A stretch of 64,000 nucleotides of DNA from the NCBI GenBank assembly GCA_011390885.1, contig JAABRO010000014.1, positions 253 to 64,252 of the forward strand, in the 5' to 3' direction. Below, piece after piece: positions 2-64,000 of the stretch. This DNA is from Gemmatimonas sp. (lineage in GTDB: Bacteria > Gemmatimonadota > Gemmatimonadetes > Gemmatimonadales > Gemmatimonadaceae). The first letter of the stretch is position 1, and every line of letters starts with the position of its first letter. The position numbers and the translations under genes were made by a program. Under the pieces are notes generated by a model. The model saw only the letters and a program-made list of their open reading frames with translations. It did not search any database and was not told the DNA's origin.

Positions 2-3000
2 TTCGTGTCGTCACCGGCCGCCCACGGCGCCCGCATGTACCGCACCGGTGACCTGGCGGTGTGGTCGCTCGACGGCACGCTGCGCTGCCTCGGGCGCATC
101 GACACGCAGGTCAAGCTGCGCGGGCATCGCATCGAGCTCGGCGAGATCGAGGCCGCGCTCGAGGCGCTGCCGGCCGTGCGCGAATCGGCCGCGCGGCTCT
201 GGGATGATGGGCAGGGCGACGCCCGCCTGGTGGCCTACGTCGCTCCTGCCCTCGGCGAGACGCTCGATCGCGATGTGGTGCTCGATGCGCTGCGCACGCG
301 CCTCCCGTCGTACATGCTGCCGCAGCACCTCGTGGTGCTCGACGCGCTCCCGCGCACTCCCAACGCCAAGCTCGATCGGGCGGCCCTGCCGTCCCCAGCG
401 GATGGACCGGGATCGGCGCGCGCCGAATCCGCCGATGTCCCGGCCGCGCCTTCGTGGCGCGGGCTGGCGCGGATCGTGGCCGACGTGTGGCAGGAGGTGC
501 TGGGCGTGCCGGTCGCGCGCGGTGATGCGGACTTCTTCGAACTGGGCGGGCACTCGATCCTCGTGGCGCGGGTGATTGCGCGTCTCGAGGATCGGCTCGG
601 CGTGGAGGTCGGCATGCGCCGGCTCTTCGAGCATCCAAGGTTCGAGGCGTTCGTGGAGGCGGTGACGCCACTCGCTGCCGCGAATGAGGCGCCAGCCGCG
701 GAGTCCGGACGCGCGGGGCTGGCAGTGTCTGCGGACGGCGCGCCGTCCGATGCGTCGCAACCCGCCGCTGGACGATGGGGGACCGTCCTGTCGGCGCAGC
801 AGGAGCGGCTCTGGTACCTCGAGCGGGTGGAGCCCGGACTCACCGCGTACGTGCTGCCGGGCGCCTTCCAGCTCGAGGGACCCCTGCACCTCGACGCGCT
901 CGAGGGCGCACTGCGTGACTTCGTGGAGCGCCATGACCTCGGTCGCGTGCACATCGTGACCGACGCTGGGCAGCCACGCCTGGCGTACGCGGATGCCTCG
1001 CACTTCTCGTTCCGTGTGATCGAGGCGGCCGACGTCCTGGCCGACCCGACCGATGCGCGAGCACTCGCGCGCTGGATCGAGGAGGCGGGCGACGTGGCCA
1101 TGTCGCTCGACGAGCCGCCGCTCATCCGGTTCACGCTCGTGCGTGTCCAACCCGCGGTACACGTGCTGCTCCTCGTGGTGCACCACGCCGTCTGGGACGG
1201 ATGGTGCTTCGACCTGTTCCTGCGTGACGTCGGCGCGTGCTACGCCGCACGGTGCGAGGGGCGCGCGCCCGGGTTGCCGGCGCTCACCACGTCCTACGCG
1301 GCGTTCGTCGCACAGCAGCGGGCGCGGCTGGACGGTGCGCGAGGCGAGGCCGGGTTGCGCTTCTGGTCGGAGACACTGTCCGGGACATTGCCGGACCTCG
1401 AAGTCATGGGTGACCGGCCGAGGCCCGCGCAGATGACCTACCAGGGCAGCCGCGTGCCATTCTCCCTCGGTGCCGACGGGCTTGCCGGCGTGCGCGCGCT
1501 GGCGAAGGCCGAGCACACCACGGTCTTCCTCACCATGCTCGCGGTCTACAAGGTGCTCCTGCACCGCACGACCGGCCAGGAGGACCTGATCGTCGCGGTG
1601 CCGGTGCAGGGGCGCGGGCAGCCAGCCTTCGAGGAGGTCGTGGGCTTCTTCGTGAACACGGTGGTGGTGCGGTCGCAACCGAATCCGCGCCTGACCTTCC
1701 GCGAGTACCTGCGCGATGTCGCCGCGCGGTTCCTCGGCGCGCTGGAGCACCAGGACACGCCCTTCGAGTGGCTGGTGCGCCGGTTCGGGCGTCGCGATGC
1801 GAGTCGCACGCCGATCTTCCAGACGATGTTCACCCACCAGTTCACCGCACGGCGTCACGAGGGCTGGGGTGACGTGCGCATTCGCTCGTTCAACCGCGGG
1901 ACGCGGTCGGTCACGACGGACATCAGTCTCTGGGTGCGTGAGTACGAGGAGCGCATGGACGGCGGCCTCGACTATCGCACCGACCTGTTCGACGAGGCCT
2001 CGGCGGCATCGCTCGCCTCGGCGTACCATCGCCTGCTCGAGGCGGTCGCCCGCAATCCCGACATCGCGCTCGAGGACCTGCCCCTGCTCGATGAGCGCGA
2101 GATCCGGTGCGAGACGCGCGAACGACGGGGCCTGGCGTCCACGGCGTCGGGCGAGTGGTCCGCGCTGGCGTGCATCGCTCGACATGCGGCCGAGTCGCCG
2201 TCCGCGATCGCCACCGAGGACGGCGACGGACGACTCACCTACGCGGAGCTCGAGTCCATGGCGGCGCACGTCGCTGCCGGGCTCATCGCGCGCGGCGTTG
2301 CGCCGGGCGACCCCGTCGTCATGCTCGTGCCGCGCGATCGGCGCCTGCCGGCGCTGCTGCTCGGTGTGTTGCGGGCCGGCGCGGTGTATGTGCCGTTCGA
2401 CCCGACGTATCCGGTGGAGCGCCTGCGATACATGGCAGAGGACAGTGCGGCGCGCGTTGCCCTCGTCGATGCCGAGACGGCGGAGCTCGCCTCGATCATC
2501 GGCCTGCAGCCGGTCGCCGCGGACTCGCTGTGCGACGGATCGGCCGCAGCTGCAGGAGCGGCGGAGCGCTCGATTCGCGACCGCTCGTGGCCCGACGCGT
2601 CGGCGCCGGCCTATCGCATCTACACATCGGGGTCGACCGGCCAGCCGAAGGCGGTCGTCGTGTCGCATGGCGCGCTCGACAACTTCCTCCTTGGTACGCG
2701 GGATCTGCTGGTGTTGACGCCGAGCGATGCGCTGCTCGCCGTCACGACGGTCTCGTTCGACATCTCGCTGCTCGAACTCCTGTCGCCGCTCGTCGCCGGG
2801 GCTCGCGTGTTCATGGCGACCGCCGACGAGGCGATCGATGCCTGGGCCCTGCGCCAGCGACTGCAGCACGATGGTATCACGGTCATGCAGGCCACGCCGG
2901 CGACGTGGCGCCTGCTGGTCGACGATGGCTGGTCCGGGGGGCTGCGGCTCGCGATCTGCGGTGGCGAGGCGTTCCCGCGCACCCTGGCCGACGAACTGCT

Positions 3001-3895
3001 CGCACGGTGCGGCAACGTGTGGAACATGTACGGGCCCACGGAGACGACCATCTGGTCGACGGCGCAGGCGGTCGGACACGGCACGGGTCGCGTGCCGGTC
3101 GGCCGGCCGTATCGCAACACCAGCGTGTACGTGCTCGACTCGAGGCAGCGTCCGGTGCCGCAGGGGGTGCCGGGTGAGATCTGGATCGGCGGCGATGGCG
3201 TCGCGGTCGGTTACTGGCAGCGCGACGCGCTCACGGGCGAGCGCTTCGTCGCCGATCCATTCGCCGACGCACCCGGGGCACGGATGTATCGCACCGGAGA
3301 CCTCGGTCGCTGGCGCGCCGATGGAACGCTCGACCATCTCGGTCGCCTCGATCTGCAGGTGAAGGTGCATGGGTATCGTATCGAGCTTGGCGAGGTCGAG
3401 GCGGCGCTGGAGTCACTGCCCGACATCCGACAGGCGGCCGTGGACGCACGCGGCGAGGATGCGGACCGTCGCCTCATCGGCTGGGTCACGCTCGCGGAGG
3501 GGGTGACGGACCCACCGACGTCGAGCGAGGTGCGTCGCGCGCTGCGCGACCGCCTCCCCGCGCACATGGTGCCGGCGCTGATCGTGACCGTGGCGTCGAT
3601 GCCGCTCACGCTCAACGGCAAGGTGGACCGGCGGCAGCTGCCCGATCCGATGCAGCAGGCTGCAGTCGGCGGCGCCGAGTATGAGCCGCCGCGCGGCGAG
3701 GTGGAGACGGTCATCGCGGAGGAGTGGCAGCGGCTGCTGGGCGTGACACGCATCGGACGGCACGACAACTTCTTCGAGCTCGGGGGACACTCGCTGCTTT
3801 CACTGCAGTCCGTCGCGGCGATCGAGCGACGCCTGGGCCGGCGTCTCGATCCGCGACGGTTCTTCTTCTCCACGCTCGCCCAACTCGCCAACTAG
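2..3895 (+). CDS. Nonribosomal peptide synthetase, C-terminal part (A-T-C-A-T)
   Basis: The gene enters in frame from the left edge, so the GTG at 5 is not its start. Counting residues from base 5: the tail of an adenylation domain (YRTGDL near 12, NAKLDR near 120), a carrier domain (LGGHS, Ser184), a condensation domain from about 260 with the catalytic HHAVWDG at 393-399, a second adenylation domain from about 720 (YTSGSTG at 873, YGPTET near 1009, YRTGDL at 1095, NGKVDR at 1204) and a last carrier (LGGHS, Ser1263). It stops about 33 residues later, with no thioesterase, reductase or epimerase domain. It therefore adds at least one residue and then needs release in trans or hand-over to another enzyme. 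The second adenylation pocket read by eye is D-I-L-Q-A-C-M-I-W, loosely like glycine codes; this is tentative. A methyltransferase gene follows after 3 bases. Confidence 0.95.
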   Translation, partial: FVSSPAAHGARMYRTGDLAVWSLDGTLRCLGRIDTQVKLRGHRIELGEIEAALEALPAVRESAARLWDDGQGDARLVAYVAPALGETLDRDVVLDALRTRLPSYMLPQHLVVLDALPRTPNAKLDRAALPSPADGPGSARAESADVPAAPSWRGLARIVADVWQEVLGVPVARGDADFFELGGHSILVARVIARLEDRLGVEVGMRRLFEHPRFEAFVEAVTPLAAANEAPAAESGRAGLAVSADGAPSDASQPAAGRWGTVLSAQQERLWYLERVEPGLTAYVLPGAFQLEGPLHLDALEGALRDFVERHDLGRVHIVTDAGQPRLAYADASHFSFRVIEAADVLADPTDARALARWIEEAGDVAMSLDEPPLIRFTLVRVQPAVHVLLLVVHHAVWDGWCFDLFLRDVGACYAARCEGRAPGLPALTTSYAAFVAQQRARLDGARGEAGLRFWSETLSGTLPDLEVMGDRPRPAQMTYQGSRVPFSLGADGLAGVRALAKAEHTTVFLTMLAVYKVLLHRTTGQEDLIVAVPVQGRGQPAFEEVVGFFVNTVVVRSQPNPRLTFREYLRDVAARFLGALEHQDTPFEWLVRRFGRRDASRTPIFQTMFTHQFTARRHEGWGDVRIRSFNRGTRSVTTDISLWVREYEERMDGGLDYRTDLFDEASAASLASAYHRLLEAVARNPDIALEDLPLLDEREIRCETRERRGLASTASGEWSALACIARHAAESPSAIATEDGDGRLTYAELESMAAHVAAGLIARGVAPGDPVVMLVPRDRRLPALLLGVLRAGAVYVPFDPTYPVERLRYMAEDSAARVALVDAETAELASIIGLQPVAADSLCDGSAAAAGAAERSIRDRSWPDASAPAYRIYTSGSTGQPKAVVVSHGALDNFLLGTRDLLVLTPSDALLAVTTVSFDISLLELLSPLVAGARVFMATADEAIDAWALRQRLQHDGITVMQATPATWRLLVDDGWSGGLRLAICGGEAFPRTLADELLARCGNVWNMYGPTETTIWSTAQAVGHGTGRVPVGRPYRNTSVYVLDSRQRPVPQGVPGEIWIGGDGVAVGYWQRDALTGERFVADPFADAPGARMYRTGDLGRWRADGTLDHLGRLDLQVKVHGYRIELGEVEAALESLPDIRQAAVDARGEDADRRLIGWVTLAEGVTDPPTSSEVRRALRDRLPAHMVPALIVTVASMPLTLNGKVDRRQLPDPMQQAAVGGAEYEPPRGEVETVIAEEWQRLLGVTRIGRHDNFFELGGHSLLSLQSVAAIERRLGRRLDPRRFFFSTLAQLAN

Positions 3896-59196: not shown

Positions 59197-59398
59197 CGCG
59201 AACGGAGTCGGGGCGGCGCGTGGGTGGTCGGACGCGGGGGCGAGGGAACCAAGCCGGCCCGCTCCGTGAATATAGAGACAGGCCGCGCCCGATCGGGCGC
59301 GCCGCCGCGGCCTCGCGGGCTCCAGCATTCGGCCGCCGATTGCGTAGTATTCACGGATCGTGGCCACCGATCGGCCATCCTCATCGCCCCATCCCGTC

Positions 59399-60097
59399 AT
59401 GACCCATCGCTCCTCCGTGCGAGCCGGTGACTCGGCTCGTCGTCGCACTGCGCTCGCCGTCCTGGGTTCGGCCGTCGTCCTCGCCGTTGCCTCGGTCACC
59501 GTGGCGGCGACGTCCGCCTCTGCCGCGCCGCTGTCGGGCGCATCGCCTGCGGTGACGGCGGGCGGTCCGTGGGTGCCGGCGCTGTGGCACCACGCAGCCT
59601 ACCATGCCCCGTTCCGTCTCGAGGCCGAGCGCTTCGCGACCGGCACGATGGCCGAGGCGCCGGTCGGTCTGGCCGCTGGCCTCGCGACGCGCGGCGTGCT
59701 CGTGGAAACGGCGGACGCGCTGCAGGACTCGCCGCCGATCGACTGGCGCGTGCTGGCCGGCCTCGACTACCTCACGGGCAAGGCCACGGACACGCTCAAG
59801 AAGCTCGAGGGCAAGCGCGTGCGCGTGCCGGGCTTCGTCGTGCCGCTCGACGACTTCATGGAAGACGGCGCCGAGTTCCTGCTCGTGCCGTACTACGGCG
59901 CCTGCGTGCACACGCCGCCGCCGCCGCCGAACCAGATCATCTTCGTGCAGATGGCCAACAAGAAGGCCGTGAAGCTGGCGCTGTTCGACGCCGTCTGGAT
60001 GCACGGCACGCTGAAGATCGCCACCGTCGAAAGCCCCTACGGCACCGTGGGCTTCACGATCGACGGGCTGAAGATGGAACCGTACAGCTCGCGATGA
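59399..60097 (+). CDS. DUF3299 secreted protein
   Basis: 232 residues, ATG at 59399. A twin-arginine-free signal peptide or anchor ([21 protein letters not shown]) and then, from about 120, the DUF3299 core: [50 protein letters not shown]. The conserved Cys and His in the [11 protein letters not shown] stretch could bind metal. In Pseudomonas a related protein is encoded in a zinc-responsive operon with an ABC transporter and a His-rich protein; the same neighbours are found here. Translationally coupled to the ATPase gene (ATGA). Confidence 0.85.
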
Positions 60098-60837
60098 GCC
60101 TGTCGCACACGGCGCCGGCCGCCGCATCGACGGCGTCGGCACCGGCGGTGGAACTGCAGGGCGCCCGCTTCGCCTATCGCGCCGGTCGTGACGTGGTCGC
60201 GATCGAGTCGCTGGTGATTCCGCGGGGAGAGACGGTGTTCCTGCACGGGCCGAGCGGCAGTGGCAAGACCACGCTGCTCGGCCTGCTTGCTGGAGTGCTC
60301 AAGGCCGACCAGGGCGCGGTGCGCATCCTCGGCACCGACCTCACGCGTCTGTCCAGTGGTGAGCGCGACGCGTTTCGCGCGCAGCACCTCGGCTACGTCT
60401 TCCAGCAGTTCAACCTCATTCCGTACCTCTCGGTGCGGGAGAACATCCTGCTGCCGGTTCGGCTCGACGCCGGCCGTCGCGCGCGCCTGCAGGGGGCCGA
60501 TCCGCTGCGCGCGGCCGACACGCTCGCGGCCGACCTCGACATCGCAGGGGCGCTCGAATCGCCGGTCACCGAACTCTCGGTGGGGCAGCAGCAGCGCGTG
60601 GCCGTGGCGCGCGCGCTGATCGCGTCGCCCGAACTGGTGATCTGCGACGAGCCCACGTCGGCGCTCGATTCCGATCGCCGCGAGCGCTTCCTGCAGCTGC
60701 TCTTCAAATCCTGCGCCAAGGCGGGCGCCACCCTGGTGTTCGTGAGCCATGACATGTCGTTGCAGCCCCTCTTCGCGCGCGCGGTGTCGCTCCCCGAGGT
60801 GAACCGCGCGAGCGCCGTGCACCTCGTGGAGAACTGA
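60094..60837 (+). CDS. ABC transporter ATP-binding protein, LolD/MacB type
   Basis: 247 residues. Walker A GPSGSGKTTLLGLLAG, Q loop VFQQFNLIPYLSV, signature LSVGQQQRVAVARAL, Walker B LVICDEPTSALD and H loop FVSHD. The sequence type is that of mechanotransmission transporters (LolD, MacB, FtsE), which pair with FtsX-like permeases such as the one encoded 2 bases downstream. Energy for moving a periplasmic ligand or lipoprotein rather than classic import. Confidence 0.95.
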   Translation: MSLSHTAPAAASTASAPAVELQGARFAYRAGRDVVAIESLVIPRGETVFLHGPSGSGKTTLLGLLAGVLKADQGAVRILGTDLTRLSSGERDAFRAQHLGYVFQQFNLIPYLSVRENILLPVRLDAGRRARLQGADPLRAADTLAADLDIAGALESPVTELSVGQQQRVAVARALIASPELVICDEPTSALDSDRRERFLQLLFKSCAKAGATLVFVSHDMSLQPLFARAVSLPEVNRASAVHLVEN

Positions 60838-60839
60838 CG

Positions 60840-62366
60840 GTGGGCACGATCCTCCGCCTCGCGCTGCAGTCGCTGCGCAGCCGCTTCCTCACGTCGTTCC
60901 TCACGGTGGCGAGCATCGCGCTCAGCGTGACGCTGCTCGTGGGCATCGAGCATGTGCGCGCGGGCGTGCGCGAGAGCTTCGCCGGCACGATCCGCGGCGT
61001 GGACCTGATCGTGGGCGCGCGCGGCGGCACGCTGCAGATCCTGCTGAGCAGCGTGTTCGGCATCGGCGCGCCGGCGGGATCCGTGAGCATGGCGACCTAC
61101 GAACGCTGGGCGCAGCATCCGGCCGTGGCGTGGACGATTCCGTACGCGCTGGGCGACAGCCATCGCGGCTACCGCGTGGTGGGCACGACGCCCGAGTTCT
61201 ACGAGCGCTATCGCTACCGGCAGGACGGCCGGGTGACGTTCGCGACCGGCGGGCCGGCCGCGAAGGAGACGGACGTCGTGATCGGTGCTGAAGTGGCCGA
61301 GCGACTGGGATATGCGGTGGGCTCACCCATCGTCGTCACGCATGGGCTGCAGGGTGGCGGCATCTCGGATCACGAGGCGCACCCGTTCACGATCGTGGGC
61401 GTGCTCGATCGCACGTTCACGCCGATCGACCGGGCGATCTATGTCACGCTCGAAGGCATCGAGGCGATGCACGAGGACTTCGAGGCGATGCCGGTGTCGG
61501 CGCCGCCGGCGATCGGGGCGCCTGCGGAAAGCGTGCCGAGCATGCCGGGCGCGTCGGCCCCGCCGGCGATGCCGGGCGCATCCGCACCACCGGCCATGCC
61601 GGGGTACGAGCCGCCGCCGGGCACGCCCACGATGCCGGGGTACGAGCCGCCGCCGGGCACGCCCACCATGCCGGGCGCGACGCCGCCGGCGGTGGCGCCT
61701 GCGCCTGCCCCCGTGGCCGAGGCGCCGCACGACGACGAGCACGACGATCATGCGGACCACGACGAGGACGCGCAGGGTGCCGAGGGCGACCACGCCGGTC
61801 ACGATCACGCGCCGGAGCAGATCACGGCGTTCTTCGTGGGCACGCGCAACCGCTTCGAGGCGCTGCAGCTGCAGCGCGAGATGAACACCGACCTCACGGA
61901 GCCGCTCACGGCGGTCATTCCCGGCGTCGCGCTCGGTGAACTGTGGCAGAACATCGCGAGCGCCGAAGTGGGGCTGCGCATCGTGGCGCTGTTCGCGGTG
62001 GCGATCGGACTCACCGGCATGCTCGTGGCGCTGTACTCCTCGCTCGACGCGCGACGCCGCGAGATGGCGATCCTGCGCGCGGTCGGCGCGGGCCCGCGCA
62101 CGATCGTGTCGCTGCTCGTGTTCGAGTCGGCGCTGCTGGCGTTCGTGGGATGCGTGCTTGGCGTTGCCTTCGTGTACCTCATTCTCAGCCTCGGCCAGGG
62201 CGCGATCGAAGCACGCTCCGGCATCCATCTCGCCATTCGCGGCCTGGGTGCCACGGAGTGGTCGTATCTCGCGCTCGTGCTCGGCGCCGGCACGCTGATC
62301 GGTTTCGTGCCGGCGCTCAAGGCGTACCGCAACTCGCTCAGCGACGGACTCAGTCCGCGCAGCTGA
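60840..62366 (+). CDS. FtsX-like ABC permease with His/Asp-rich periplasmic insert
   Basis: 508 residues from GTG at 60840. One N-terminal membrane segment (LRSRFLTSFLTVASIALSVT), a large periplasmic domain and three C-terminal helices (VGLRIVALFAVAIGLTGML, TIVSLLVFESALLAFVG, LALVLGAGTLIGFV) in the FtsX/MacB arrangement. The periplasmic domain carries an insert: Pro-rich tandem units (ASAPPAMPG twice, YEPPPGTPTMPG twice) and then a tract near 297-327 with PHDDEHDDHADHDED and DHAGHDHAPE, a likely divalent metal-binding stretch. Together with DUF3299 this suggests a metal-linked export or lipoprotein system; zinc is the best guess, unproven. Confidence 0.9.
   Translation: MGTILRLALQSLRSRFLTSFLTVASIALSVTLLVGIEHVRAGVRESFAGTIRGVDLIVGARGGTLQILLSSVFGIGAPAGSVSMATYERWAQHPAVAWTIPYALGDSHRGYRVVGTTPEFYERYRYRQDGRVTFATGGPAAKETDVVIGAEVAERLGYAVGSPIVVTHGLQGGGISDHEAHPFTIVGVLDRTFTPIDRAIYVTLEGIEAMHEDFEAMPVSAPPAIGAPAESVPSMPGASAPPAMPGASAPPAMPGYEPPPGTPTMPGYEPPPGTPTMPGATPPAVAPAPAPVAEAPHDDEHDDHADHDEDAQGAEGDHAGHDHAPEQITAFFVGTRNRFEALQLQREMNTDLTEPLTAVIPGVALGELWQNIASAEVGLRIVALFAVAIGLTGMLVALYSSLDARRREMAILRAVGAGPRTIVSLLVFESALLAFVGCVLGVAFVYLILSLGQGAIEARSGIHLAIRGLGATEWSYLALVLGAGTLIGFVPALKAYRNSLSDGLSPRS
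61606..61677 (+). repeat. 36-bp tandem repeat in the permease insert
   Basis: TACGAGCCGCCGCCGGGCAC plus 16 bases occurs at 61606 and again at 61642, differing at about two positions. It encodes two YEPPPGTPTMPG units, in frame. Confidence 0.85.
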
Positions 62367-62476: not shown

Positions 62477-64000
62477 ATGAAGTTCCGTTCACTCGTGCGC
62501 GCCAGCGCCGGTCTCGCGCTGCTCGCCACGACGACACCGCTGGTCGCGCAGGGGCCCGGCGGCCGCGGTGGCGCGCGCCCGCTCCAGAAGGCACCGCTCG
62601 CCACACCGATGCATGCCGACTCGCTGCCCGCGTACGTGCGCGCCGACGCCCCCACCGACGCGACGATCCGCCGCATCTGGGAGGAGGGGATGCAGCGCTC
62701 GCAGGTGGCGACGATCGGACAGGTGCTGCTCGATTCCATCGGACCGCGCCTGACCGGTTCGCCGAACGCGACGCGCGCCCAGGACTGGGCCGTGGGGCTG
62801 CTGAAGAGCTGGGGCGTGGACGCGAAGAAGGAGCAGTACGGCACGTGGAACGCGTGGAAGCGCGGCGTCGCGTTCGCCGCACTCACGGCGCCGCGCGTGA
62901 AGCCGCTGGACGCGACCATGCTGTCATGGAGCGGCAACACGGCCGGCGAGTGGGTGGAGGGCGGCGTGGTCATCCTCGAGCCCTACGCGAATGCCGAGGA
63001 GTTCCGCGCGTGGCTGCCGACGGTGCGCGGCAAGGTGGTGCTGGTGGGCGCGCCGCGGCTGTCGTGCCGCATGCCGAGCCAGATCAACGAGTTCGGCACG
63101 CCGGAGTACATCGAGGCGCTCACCCTCGAGCAGAATCAGCTCACGGCCGCGTATCGCGGCCTCAACCAGCGCATCCCCACGTTCTACGCCGACGTGAAGG
63201 CGGCCGGTGCGCTCGCGGTGTTCGAGTCGAACTGGTCCAACTACCCGGGCATCCAGAAGATCTTCGGTTCGCCGCGCAACGGCGCCATCGCCACGTTCGA
63301 CATCGGCTGCGAAGACTATGGCATGCTCTTCCGCCTCGCGAAGAACAACCAGAGCCCCACGGTGCGCCTGATGGCCGAGTCGGAGTCGCTCGGTGAGCAG
63401 CCGGTGTTCAACGTGATCGGCACGATCAAGGGCAGCGAGAAGCCGAACGAATACGTGGTGCTGTCGGCGCACTTCGACTCGTGGGAGGGTCACTCGGGCG
63501 CCACCGACAACGGCACGGGCTCGATCACGATGCTCGAGGCGCTGCGCCTCCTCACGACGGCGTACCCGAAGCCGAAGCGCACGATCATCCTCGGCCTGTG
63601 GAACGGCGAGGAGCAGGGGCTCAACGGCTCGCGCGCCTTCTCCGAGGATCACCCCGAGGTGGTGCAGGGGCTGCAGTTCCTGTTCAACCAGGACAACGGC
63701 ACGGGGCGCGTGGTGAGCATGAGCCCGAACATCCTGCCGAGGAGCGGCGACAAGTTCGCGCAGTACCTGTCGCAGATGCCGCGCGAGCTGAGCCAGTGGA
63801 TGCGCCTGCAGGGCCCGGGTGGCATCGGCGGCGGCACCGACCACGTGTCCTTCGCCTGCCATGGCGCGCCGGCCACGACGCTGAATGCGCTGTCGTGGGA
63901 TTACAGCTTCACCACGTGGCACACGCAGCGTGATTCATACGACAAGCTCGTGATCGACGACGTGAAGCACAACGCGACGATCGCCGCGATGTTCGCGTAC
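62477..64000 (+). CDS. M28 family zinc aminopeptidase, secreted (cut by right edge)
   Basis: 508 codons seen, no stop before the window end. ATG at 62477 with AGGAG at 62463-62467. Signal peptide MKFRSLVRASAGLALLATTT ending PLVAQ. A PA-like insert (residues about 150-290) precedes the M28 catalytic domain: zinc ligands in SAHFDSWEGHSGATDNGTG (His, Asp), catalytic Glu and ligand Glu in WNGEEQGLNGS, Asp in FNQDNG, and His in TTWHTQRDSYD. Exported metalloaminopeptidase that would feed on peptides. It follows the ABC genes after 110 bases and is probably separate. Confidence 0.93.
   Translation, partial: MKFRSLVRASAGLALLATTTPLVAQGPGGRGGARPLQKAPLATPMHADSLPAYVRADAPTDATIRRIWEEGMQRSQVATIGQVLLDSIGPRLTGSPNATRAQDWAVGLLKSWGVDAKKEQYGTWNAWKRGVAFAALTAPRVKPLDATMLSWSGNTAGEWVEGGVVILEPYANAEEFRAWLPTVRGKVVLVGAPRLSCRMPSQINEFGTPEYIEALTLEQNQLTAAYRGLNQRIPTFYADVKAAGALAVFESNWSNYPGIQKIFGSPRNGAIATFDIGCEDYGMLFRLAKNNQSPTVRLMAESESLGEQPVFNVIGTIKGSEKPNEYVVLSAHFDSWEGHSGATDNGTGSITMLEALRLLTTAYPKPKRTIILGLWNGEEQGLNGSRAFSEDHPEVVQGLQFLFNQDNGTGRVVSMSPNILPRSGDKFAQYLSQMPRELSQWMRLQGPGGIGGGTDHVSFACHGAPATTLNALSWDYSFTTWHTQRDSYDKLVIDDVKHNATIAAMFAY

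Follow-up and report, generated by a model that had tools for sequence, protein, structure and literature searches.

A ZrgA-less Operon of the Zrg Kind

Three plus-strand genes at positions 59399-62366 of a 64,000-nucleotide stretch of Gemmatimonas sp. DNA (contig JAABRO010000014.1, assembly GCA_011390885.1; the whole stretch is hereafter the window) form an ATP-binding cassette (ABC) transporter operon which is a ZrgA-less variant of the Zrg kind and not a standard member of it, and is described in this way because no ZrgA was found in the operon or in the genome. The permease carries a periplasmic loop of 115 residues that ends in a His/Asp tract, and our analysis of 167 loci revealed that a His-rich loop at this site and a nearby ZrgA gene exclude each other. 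We consider it probable (roughly 0.6) that this is a Zrg machine in which the tethered loop collects metal instead of ZrgA.

Zrg systems are known from Vibrio and, as PA4063-PA4066, from Pseudomonas aeruginosa. According to published reports, PA4063-PA4066 and zrgABCDE are under Zur control (PMC9820375, PMC9817125, PMC11481552) and ZrgA is a zinc binder (PMC9820375, PMC8561739, PMC9817125, PMC11481552), PA4063 having micromolar zinc affinity and His-rich loops (PMC8561739). The direction of Zrg-type transport, zinc import or metal-complex export, is disputed in print (PMC9820375 vs. PMC11481552). The Vibrio system has been interpreted as zinc acquisition, both in V. cholerae and in V. parahaemolyticus (PMC9820375, PMC9817125), while PA4063-PA4066 has been interpreted as a MacB-type exporter of pyochelin-cobalt, and pyochelin and cobalt build up in PA4065 mutants (PMC11481552). 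A zinc-chaperone role has also been proposed for PA4063-PA4066.

The first gene of the operon (59399..60097) encodes a ZrgE/PA4066-like DUF3299 protein (PF11736, E 1.9e-33), present once in its own genome and, judged by eye, predicted to be exported. Its C-x-H-x-PPPP-x-NQ motif is invariant at Cys169, His171, PPPP and NQ across three sequences from two phyla, and it matches PDB entry 4hsp (phmmer E 1.7e-21), the solved structure of PA4066 (PMC8561739). The second (60094..60837) is a ZrgC/PA4064-like ABC ATPase of the FtsE/LolD/MacB group (PF00005, E 4.2e-32), and the third (60840..62366) is a ZrgB/PA4065-like MacB/FtsX-type permease of 508 aa with a GTG start (PF12704 MacB_PCD, E 1.3e-15; PF02687 FtsX, E 2.6e-13). 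The DUF3299 and ATPase genes overlap by 4 bases and the ATPase stop is separated from the permease GTG by 2 bases; the operon is real and tight, and the overlapping or nearly touching genes described in an earlier note, made from the sequence alone, hold at these coordinates. Calling the ATPase LolD-type, as that note did, is right only in so far as LolD is among its nearest NCBIfam models, together with FtsE and DevA. The label is a loose one, because every score shown lies below its cut-off (142.5 against 307.75 for LolD). With lolCE at 35.3 (cut-off 362.45), LolCDE membership was dropped, since both scores fall under the curated cut-offs.

The operon thus has a MacB/FtsX-fold permease of the ZrgB type, an adjacent ABC ATPase and an adjacent DUF3299 gene, as Zrg systems do. 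The permease is 47% identical to that of Pseudomonas (a P. aeruginosa plasmid copy), 44% to that of Phaeobacter and 39% to that of a Rhodobacteraceae strain, and the Pseudomonas and Phaeobacter operons carry genes for DUF2796 (ZrgA), ATPase, permease and DUF3299. ZrgA (PF10986) was found neither in the window operon nor in its genome (4.07 Mb, 62 contigs) even at E 0.1, although this absence is not proof in an assembly that is 95.1% complete. The relation to the zinc-responsive Pseudomonas operon that had been pointed out earlier is therefore borne out by the permease identity and the same three genes, and so is the view that the separate His-rich protein is missing and the tract lies inside the permease.

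The Expanded Permease Loop

The loop (61473..61817, plus strand; residues 212-326) was delimited by extraction with two half-permease hidden Markov models (HMMs). It contains Pro-rich spacer units made of MPGYEPPPGTPT repeats (61541..61675), including a 36-base DNA tandem repeat of 2.3 copies (61594-61675), and is closed by the His/Asp tract (61728..61817), whose final 31 residues include 7 His and 9 Asp. This confirms a His/Asp tract within the permease after tandem Pro-rich units. Units of the form PPPGTPMVMPGAE, which resemble the spacer units, occur in Gemmatimonadaceae relatives, and an EHDHGDD-type loop end is kept in many members of that family. Against the 2% His of the protein itself, the His content of the tract has a binomial probability of about 3e-6, a figure that takes no account of the stretch having been chosen for its His; the His-richness of the same site in other bacteria is stronger evidence.

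An AlphaFold2 model of the permease built on 51 sequences had a mean pLDDT (predicted local distance difference test score) of 83.1, with core ten-residue blocks mostly at 84-98. The loop is predicted to be disordered, given its low confidence (about 46-54 in residues 217-325) and lack of any modeled structure. In a ZrgA-linked permease folded likewise, the short loop was moderately confident (blocks of 72 and 77) and contained a short helix. A Foldseek search with the window model retrieved MacB (5gko, E 3.4e-12), and LolCDE, the heme exporter HrtBA and YbbAP were also among the neighbors. The earlier suggestion of a fused version of the transport system did not survive. A fusion of DUF2796 and permease genes was ruled out, since the permease has no PF10986 match and its loop no predicted structure. 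Moreover, many unrelated loop sequences occupy this one site, so that replacement of ZrgA fits better than gene fusion.

Mutual Exclusion of Nearby ZrgA and a His-rich Loop

The first set of loci was drawn from the best 80 of at least 557 confirmed permeases in a scan of 84,980 species, ranked by likeness to the window permease and hence not random, from all 43 searched genomes (43/43) out of 70 DUF3299-positive Gemmatimonadota, from an even draw of 369 Gammaproteobacteria (42 with the permease), and from four plasmid loci and a few second copies. It comprised 150 distinct permeases, of which 133 were assessable; seven duplicate permeases, 16 short-flank loci, one partial permease and loci missing a permease half (including L095 and L140) were excluded. 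The second set, 385 Alphaproteobacteria, was drawn after the exclusion rule had been stated as a prediction, and gave 36 genomes with the permease and 38 loci, of which 34 were assessable after removal of four with short flanks. Loops were excised with the two half-HMMs and called His-rich at four or more His and long at 40 aa or more. ZrgA was sought in the fetched DNA and counted as nearby anywhere in the fetched stretch, usually within about 6 kb; loci L115-L144 were judged from whole-genome matches.

In the first set, all 85 loci with ZrgA nearby had loops of 11-31 aa with 0-2 His, none reaching four (0/85), while 23 of the 48 loci without nearby ZrgA did so. The Alphaproteobacteria followed the same pattern: four or more His were present in none of the 23 loci with ZrgA (maximum 1) and in nine of the 11 without it, eight of these having 17-21 and one having 4, with 3 and 1 in the other two. 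For the 167 assessable loci together, the counts are 0/108 with ZrgA against 32/59 without (Fisher p 2.3e-18, uncorrected for kinship), and loops of at least 40 aa were found in 0/108 and 41/59, respectively. Loop residues are 17.2% His in the His-loop group but 0.69% in the ZrgA group, and outside the loop both groups have 2.1%; Cys is absent from every loop. Among the 16 excluded short-flank loci, five loops had at least four His (L040, L049, L204, L211, L225) with no ZrgA seen, and 0/16 had ZrgA.

The short loop of ZrgA-linked permeases is itself conserved, with Trp in 92%, Gly in 94%, Leu in 89% and Pro in 89% of the 85 loci, and its W..G start is kept in 78/85 ZrgA loci against 6/23 His-loop loci of the first set. 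Three loci (L215, L227, L231) have kept the short conserved loop though ZrgA was not detected, and a search there for missed small His-rich proteins gave implausible frames only. DUF3299 was present in 161/167 assessable loci. A distant permease with an 8-aa loop was observed in a Deinococcus operon (L034, 2911-5218), in which a 152-aa CPFC-motif protein without a Pfam match replaces DUF3299. The His-loop form with 17-20 His was also found in four Alphaproteobacteria genomes of 1.4 Mb (L250, L264, L272, L281), and the compact version therefore persists in small genomes. No earlier report of a His-rich permease loop was found in the open-licence literature, and within the literature searched the exclusion rule across phyla is new.

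Two trees, both quick and with some long branches, were built, the first from 133 permeases without the loop, the second with 167 rows and a mixture model. The His-loop state needs 11 changes on the 133-permease tree and 13 on the 167-row tree, with at least ten forced by supported branches on each; it arose repeatedly. The first tree offers 11 independent pairs differing in ZrgA, of which none goes the wrong way and a mean of 6.3 go the expected way, the remainder being equal (median p 0.031); the second offers nine, with 0 wrong and 4.6 in the expected direction (median p 0.0625). The pattern recurs in Gemmatimonadota, Latescibacterota, Gamma-, Beta- and Alphaproteobacteria (Latescibacterota and Betaproteobacteria as labeled). 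One permease from a metagenome bin labeled Euryarchaeota (L052) has a core nearly identical on the tree to that of a Gemmatimonadota locus (L135), so the archaeal label is probably wrong.

Proposed Metal Collection by the Loop and Alternative Explanations

By analogy with MacB-fold transporters, the ATPase would use ATP in the cytoplasm to move the periplasmic domain of the permease. In the usual version a separate ZrgA would capture zinc (or cobalt) and probably meet the permease at the short conserved loop, a docking site proposed here. In the window version the loop may instead be a long flexible arm, whose Pro-rich spacer would hold the His/Asp tract out in the periplasm; metal would be captured in cis by the His/Asp ligands, which presumably bind it, and the permease would then pass it on. 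DUF3299 would be a retained accessory. The identity of the metal and zinc control of the window operon are likewise putative. A broader version, that some Zrg machines internalized their partner through loss of ZrgA from the operon and conversion of the docking loop into a disordered, tethered collector of metal with His/Asp ligands, in about ten independent changes, is put forward tentatively, at a little short of even odds. If it is true, the loop is the meeting site of ZrgA and ZrgB, and the self-contained operons offer the simplest setting for working out the function of Zrg.

Several observations weigh against collection of metal by the loop in place of ZrgA. The best counter-argument comes from V. 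cholerae, where the ZrgA core is essential and the ZrgA His-rich loop is dispensable (PMC9820375), so that a His loop may not be enough to stand in for ZrgA; the arm may do more than the ZrgA loop, or may be a store and not an essential site. Fewer than four His were found in 27 of the 59 loci without nearby ZrgA; loss of ZrgA therefore does not force a His loop, and the proposition that every ZrgA-less locus gains one fails. The kinship-corrected pair test is only borderline. A genome-wide search found no ZrgA in 15 of 21 His-loop genomes; in the other six (6/21) it is present and strict genome-wide complementarity fails, so that complementarity holds for nearby genes only. Gemmatimonadota with long inserts and ZrgA elsewhere include G184 and G243, both of the window's genus, as well as G019, G055, G068, G079 and G180, and two of the four genomes of the window's genus have ZrgA elsewhere. 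In G259 and in five or more Gemmatimonadota genomes (G184, G055, G068, G079, G180) a DUF3299-ZrgA pair lies away from the sole ABC operon, whose permease carries the long loop, and this argues against simple replacement. Finally, no Zur box was recognizable by eye upstream of the window operon, and the two Fur-family genes of the window genome score best to the Fur and PerR models, below cut-offs, with none scoring as Zur.

The arrangement of ZrgA in three genomes with both types of permease speaks for metal collection by the loop. G255 and G266 each have a second operon in which ZrgA accompanies a permease with a short loop (27 and 25 aa, respectively, without His), while their His-loop permease lies apart and has no ZrgA. 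G741 likewise has both types, with ZrgA beside the short-loop permease and not beside the His-loop one. Two-gene DUF3299-ZrgA pairs apart from ABC genes were seen at L163 (9119-10230, minus strand) and L243 (6865-8154, plus strand) and in G055, G068, G079 and G180; such pairs suggest that DUF3299 and ZrgA are partners in their own right. In two Gemmatimonadaceae loci (L165, L167), ZrgA is nearly without its usual His-rich stretch and the permease has a long Pro-rich loop.

Some of these data could be read differently. The operon might encode a split exporter of the MacB type that expels a metal-chelator complex, with the His loop sensing metal or acting as a gate so that export starts when loaded complexes arrive; this agrees with the MacB/LolE/heme-exporter fold, the accumulation phenotype of the PA4065 mutants (PMC11481552) and an HlyD-like adaptor gene just upstream of one His-loop operon (L033). 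We regard it as doubtful, given that the data from V. cholerae and V. parahaemolyticus are read as zinc acquisition (PMC9820375, PMC9817125) and that neither an adaptor gene nor one for an outer-membrane channel was recognized beside the window operon (by eye) or among the clustered neighbors listed. Neutral growth of low-complexity sequence by repeat slippage, once docking of ZrgA ends, would leave the His content without a role and would account for the DNA tandem repeats of the insert, for the 11 loops that are long but poor in His among the 48 ZrgA-less loci of the first set, and for loop sequences that vary by lineage. It appears improbable, since 30 of the 41 loops of at least 40 aa have four or more His, in several lineages independently, the loops contain 17% His against 2% in the cores of the same proteins, and many Gemmatimonadaceae retain the EHDHGDD-type end.

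A function in the envelope that has nothing to do with metal, whether LolCDE-like or peptidase-linked, with an incidental His tract, is in our opinion very improbable for the Gemmatimonadota operon. LolCDE and YbbAP are structural neighbors too, many Gemmatimonadota have an M28 peptidase gene after the operon, and no adjacent Fur-family gene was recognized in the window; however, DUF3299 accompanies nearly all assessable loci, the permease sequence is close to the Zrg types, and M28 enzymes are themselves metal-dependent. Returning to the loop as metal collector, the observation in one genome is modest, and it is the exclusion rule that opens the contact of ZrgA and ZrgB and the loop's role to direct testing. 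The rule points to one permease loop as the likely ZrgA contact and provides natural ZrgA-less systems. It also helps annotators to spot zinc-type operons without ZrgA, which are otherwise called generic ABC transporters.

Genomic Neighborhood and Zinc Context

The operon is followed by a gene for an M28 metallopeptidase (62477..64000, plus strand, continuing beyond the window end; PF04389, E 2.7e-37). This is a conserved neighbor, with tblastn matches in 21 of the 46 loci of the Gemmatimonadota set (duplicates, short flanks and two distant matches included), and it comes after the operon in several genera of at least two families. The enzyme is a possible client for the metal, and its membership in the system is only suggested. 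Upstream lies a divergent ruvB (a minus-strand frame recognized by eye), and between the two a perfect 10-base inverted repeat, TCCGTGAATA / TATTCACGGA, was found at 59263-59272 and 59348-59357. Its right arm partly coincides with a block that is conserved in genomes of the same genus, and the region perhaps contains two facing promoters. A block of the form AGCATT...TTGCGTAGTATTCA, conserved in four genomes of the genus, was rejected as a candidate Zur box, looking promoter-like and not palindromic.

The neighbor counts cover every fetched locus, apart from L115-L144, in which both permease halves were present. A Fur-family gene is nearby in 6/29 His-loop operons against 35/105 ZrgA operons, and a COG0523-type GTPase in 7/29 against 12/105. 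Three of the six Fur-family genes beside His-loop operons were tested and had the Zur model as their best match, at scores below its cut-off, and of three COG0523-type GTPases tested one (L266) was above the ZigA zinc-chaperone cut-off; these neighbors count in favor of the metal-collector reading. Neighbor clustering was noisy because antisense frames cluster, and follow-up was confined to the clusters of Fur, COG0523 and M28; in Gemmatimonadota no Fur or COG0523 neighbor stood out.

Zur-like palindromes were scanned in 18 His-loop loci with 20 shuffles each, using a consensus sequence. Sites exceeding all 20 shuffles were found just before the ATPase gene (L053, L240), before a COG0523-type gene (L204, L221) and at a place with no role seen (L042). 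Sites before the ATPase gene in L054 and L202 only equaled the best shuffle, and one before the Zur-like gene of L055 was below it. Among ZrgA-type controls, three of seven (L101, L092, L237) had a site above the shuffles. These palindromes provide weak backing for zinc control of the His-loop loci. At L033, positions 1516-3083, upstream of the His-loop operon, encode the HlyD-like adaptor together with a small membrane protein that is rich in His and has a weak DUF6463 match, hinting at a tripartite exporter.

Comparison with Known Systems

The permease, ATPase and DUF3299 homologues are common to the window operon and to ZrgABCDE of Vibrio. The latter has ZrgA (DUF2796) and mostly also ZrgD (PMC9817125), whereas the window operon is without an adjacent ZrgA and its permease loop measures 115 aa, against 11-34 aa at the same site in ZrgA-linked permeases. 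PA4063-PA4066 of P. aeruginosa has the same three genes, but DUF3299 is first in the window and last in Pseudomonas, and a PA4063 homologue is lacking here. With the MacB, LolCDE and HrtBA types the operon shares a fold of long helices around a large periplasmic domain. MacB has a fused ATPase, while here the ATPase is a separate gene, the permease has a His-rich periplasmic loop and no MacA-type adaptor or TolC gene was recognized nearby, so that membership in MacAB-TolC was rejected despite the similar fold. The ZnuABC importer has a zinc role in common through the Zrg association, and ZnuA also has His-rich loops (PMC9820375); its permease fold is different (PMC9820375), and the window operon does without the cluster A-I binding protein of that system.

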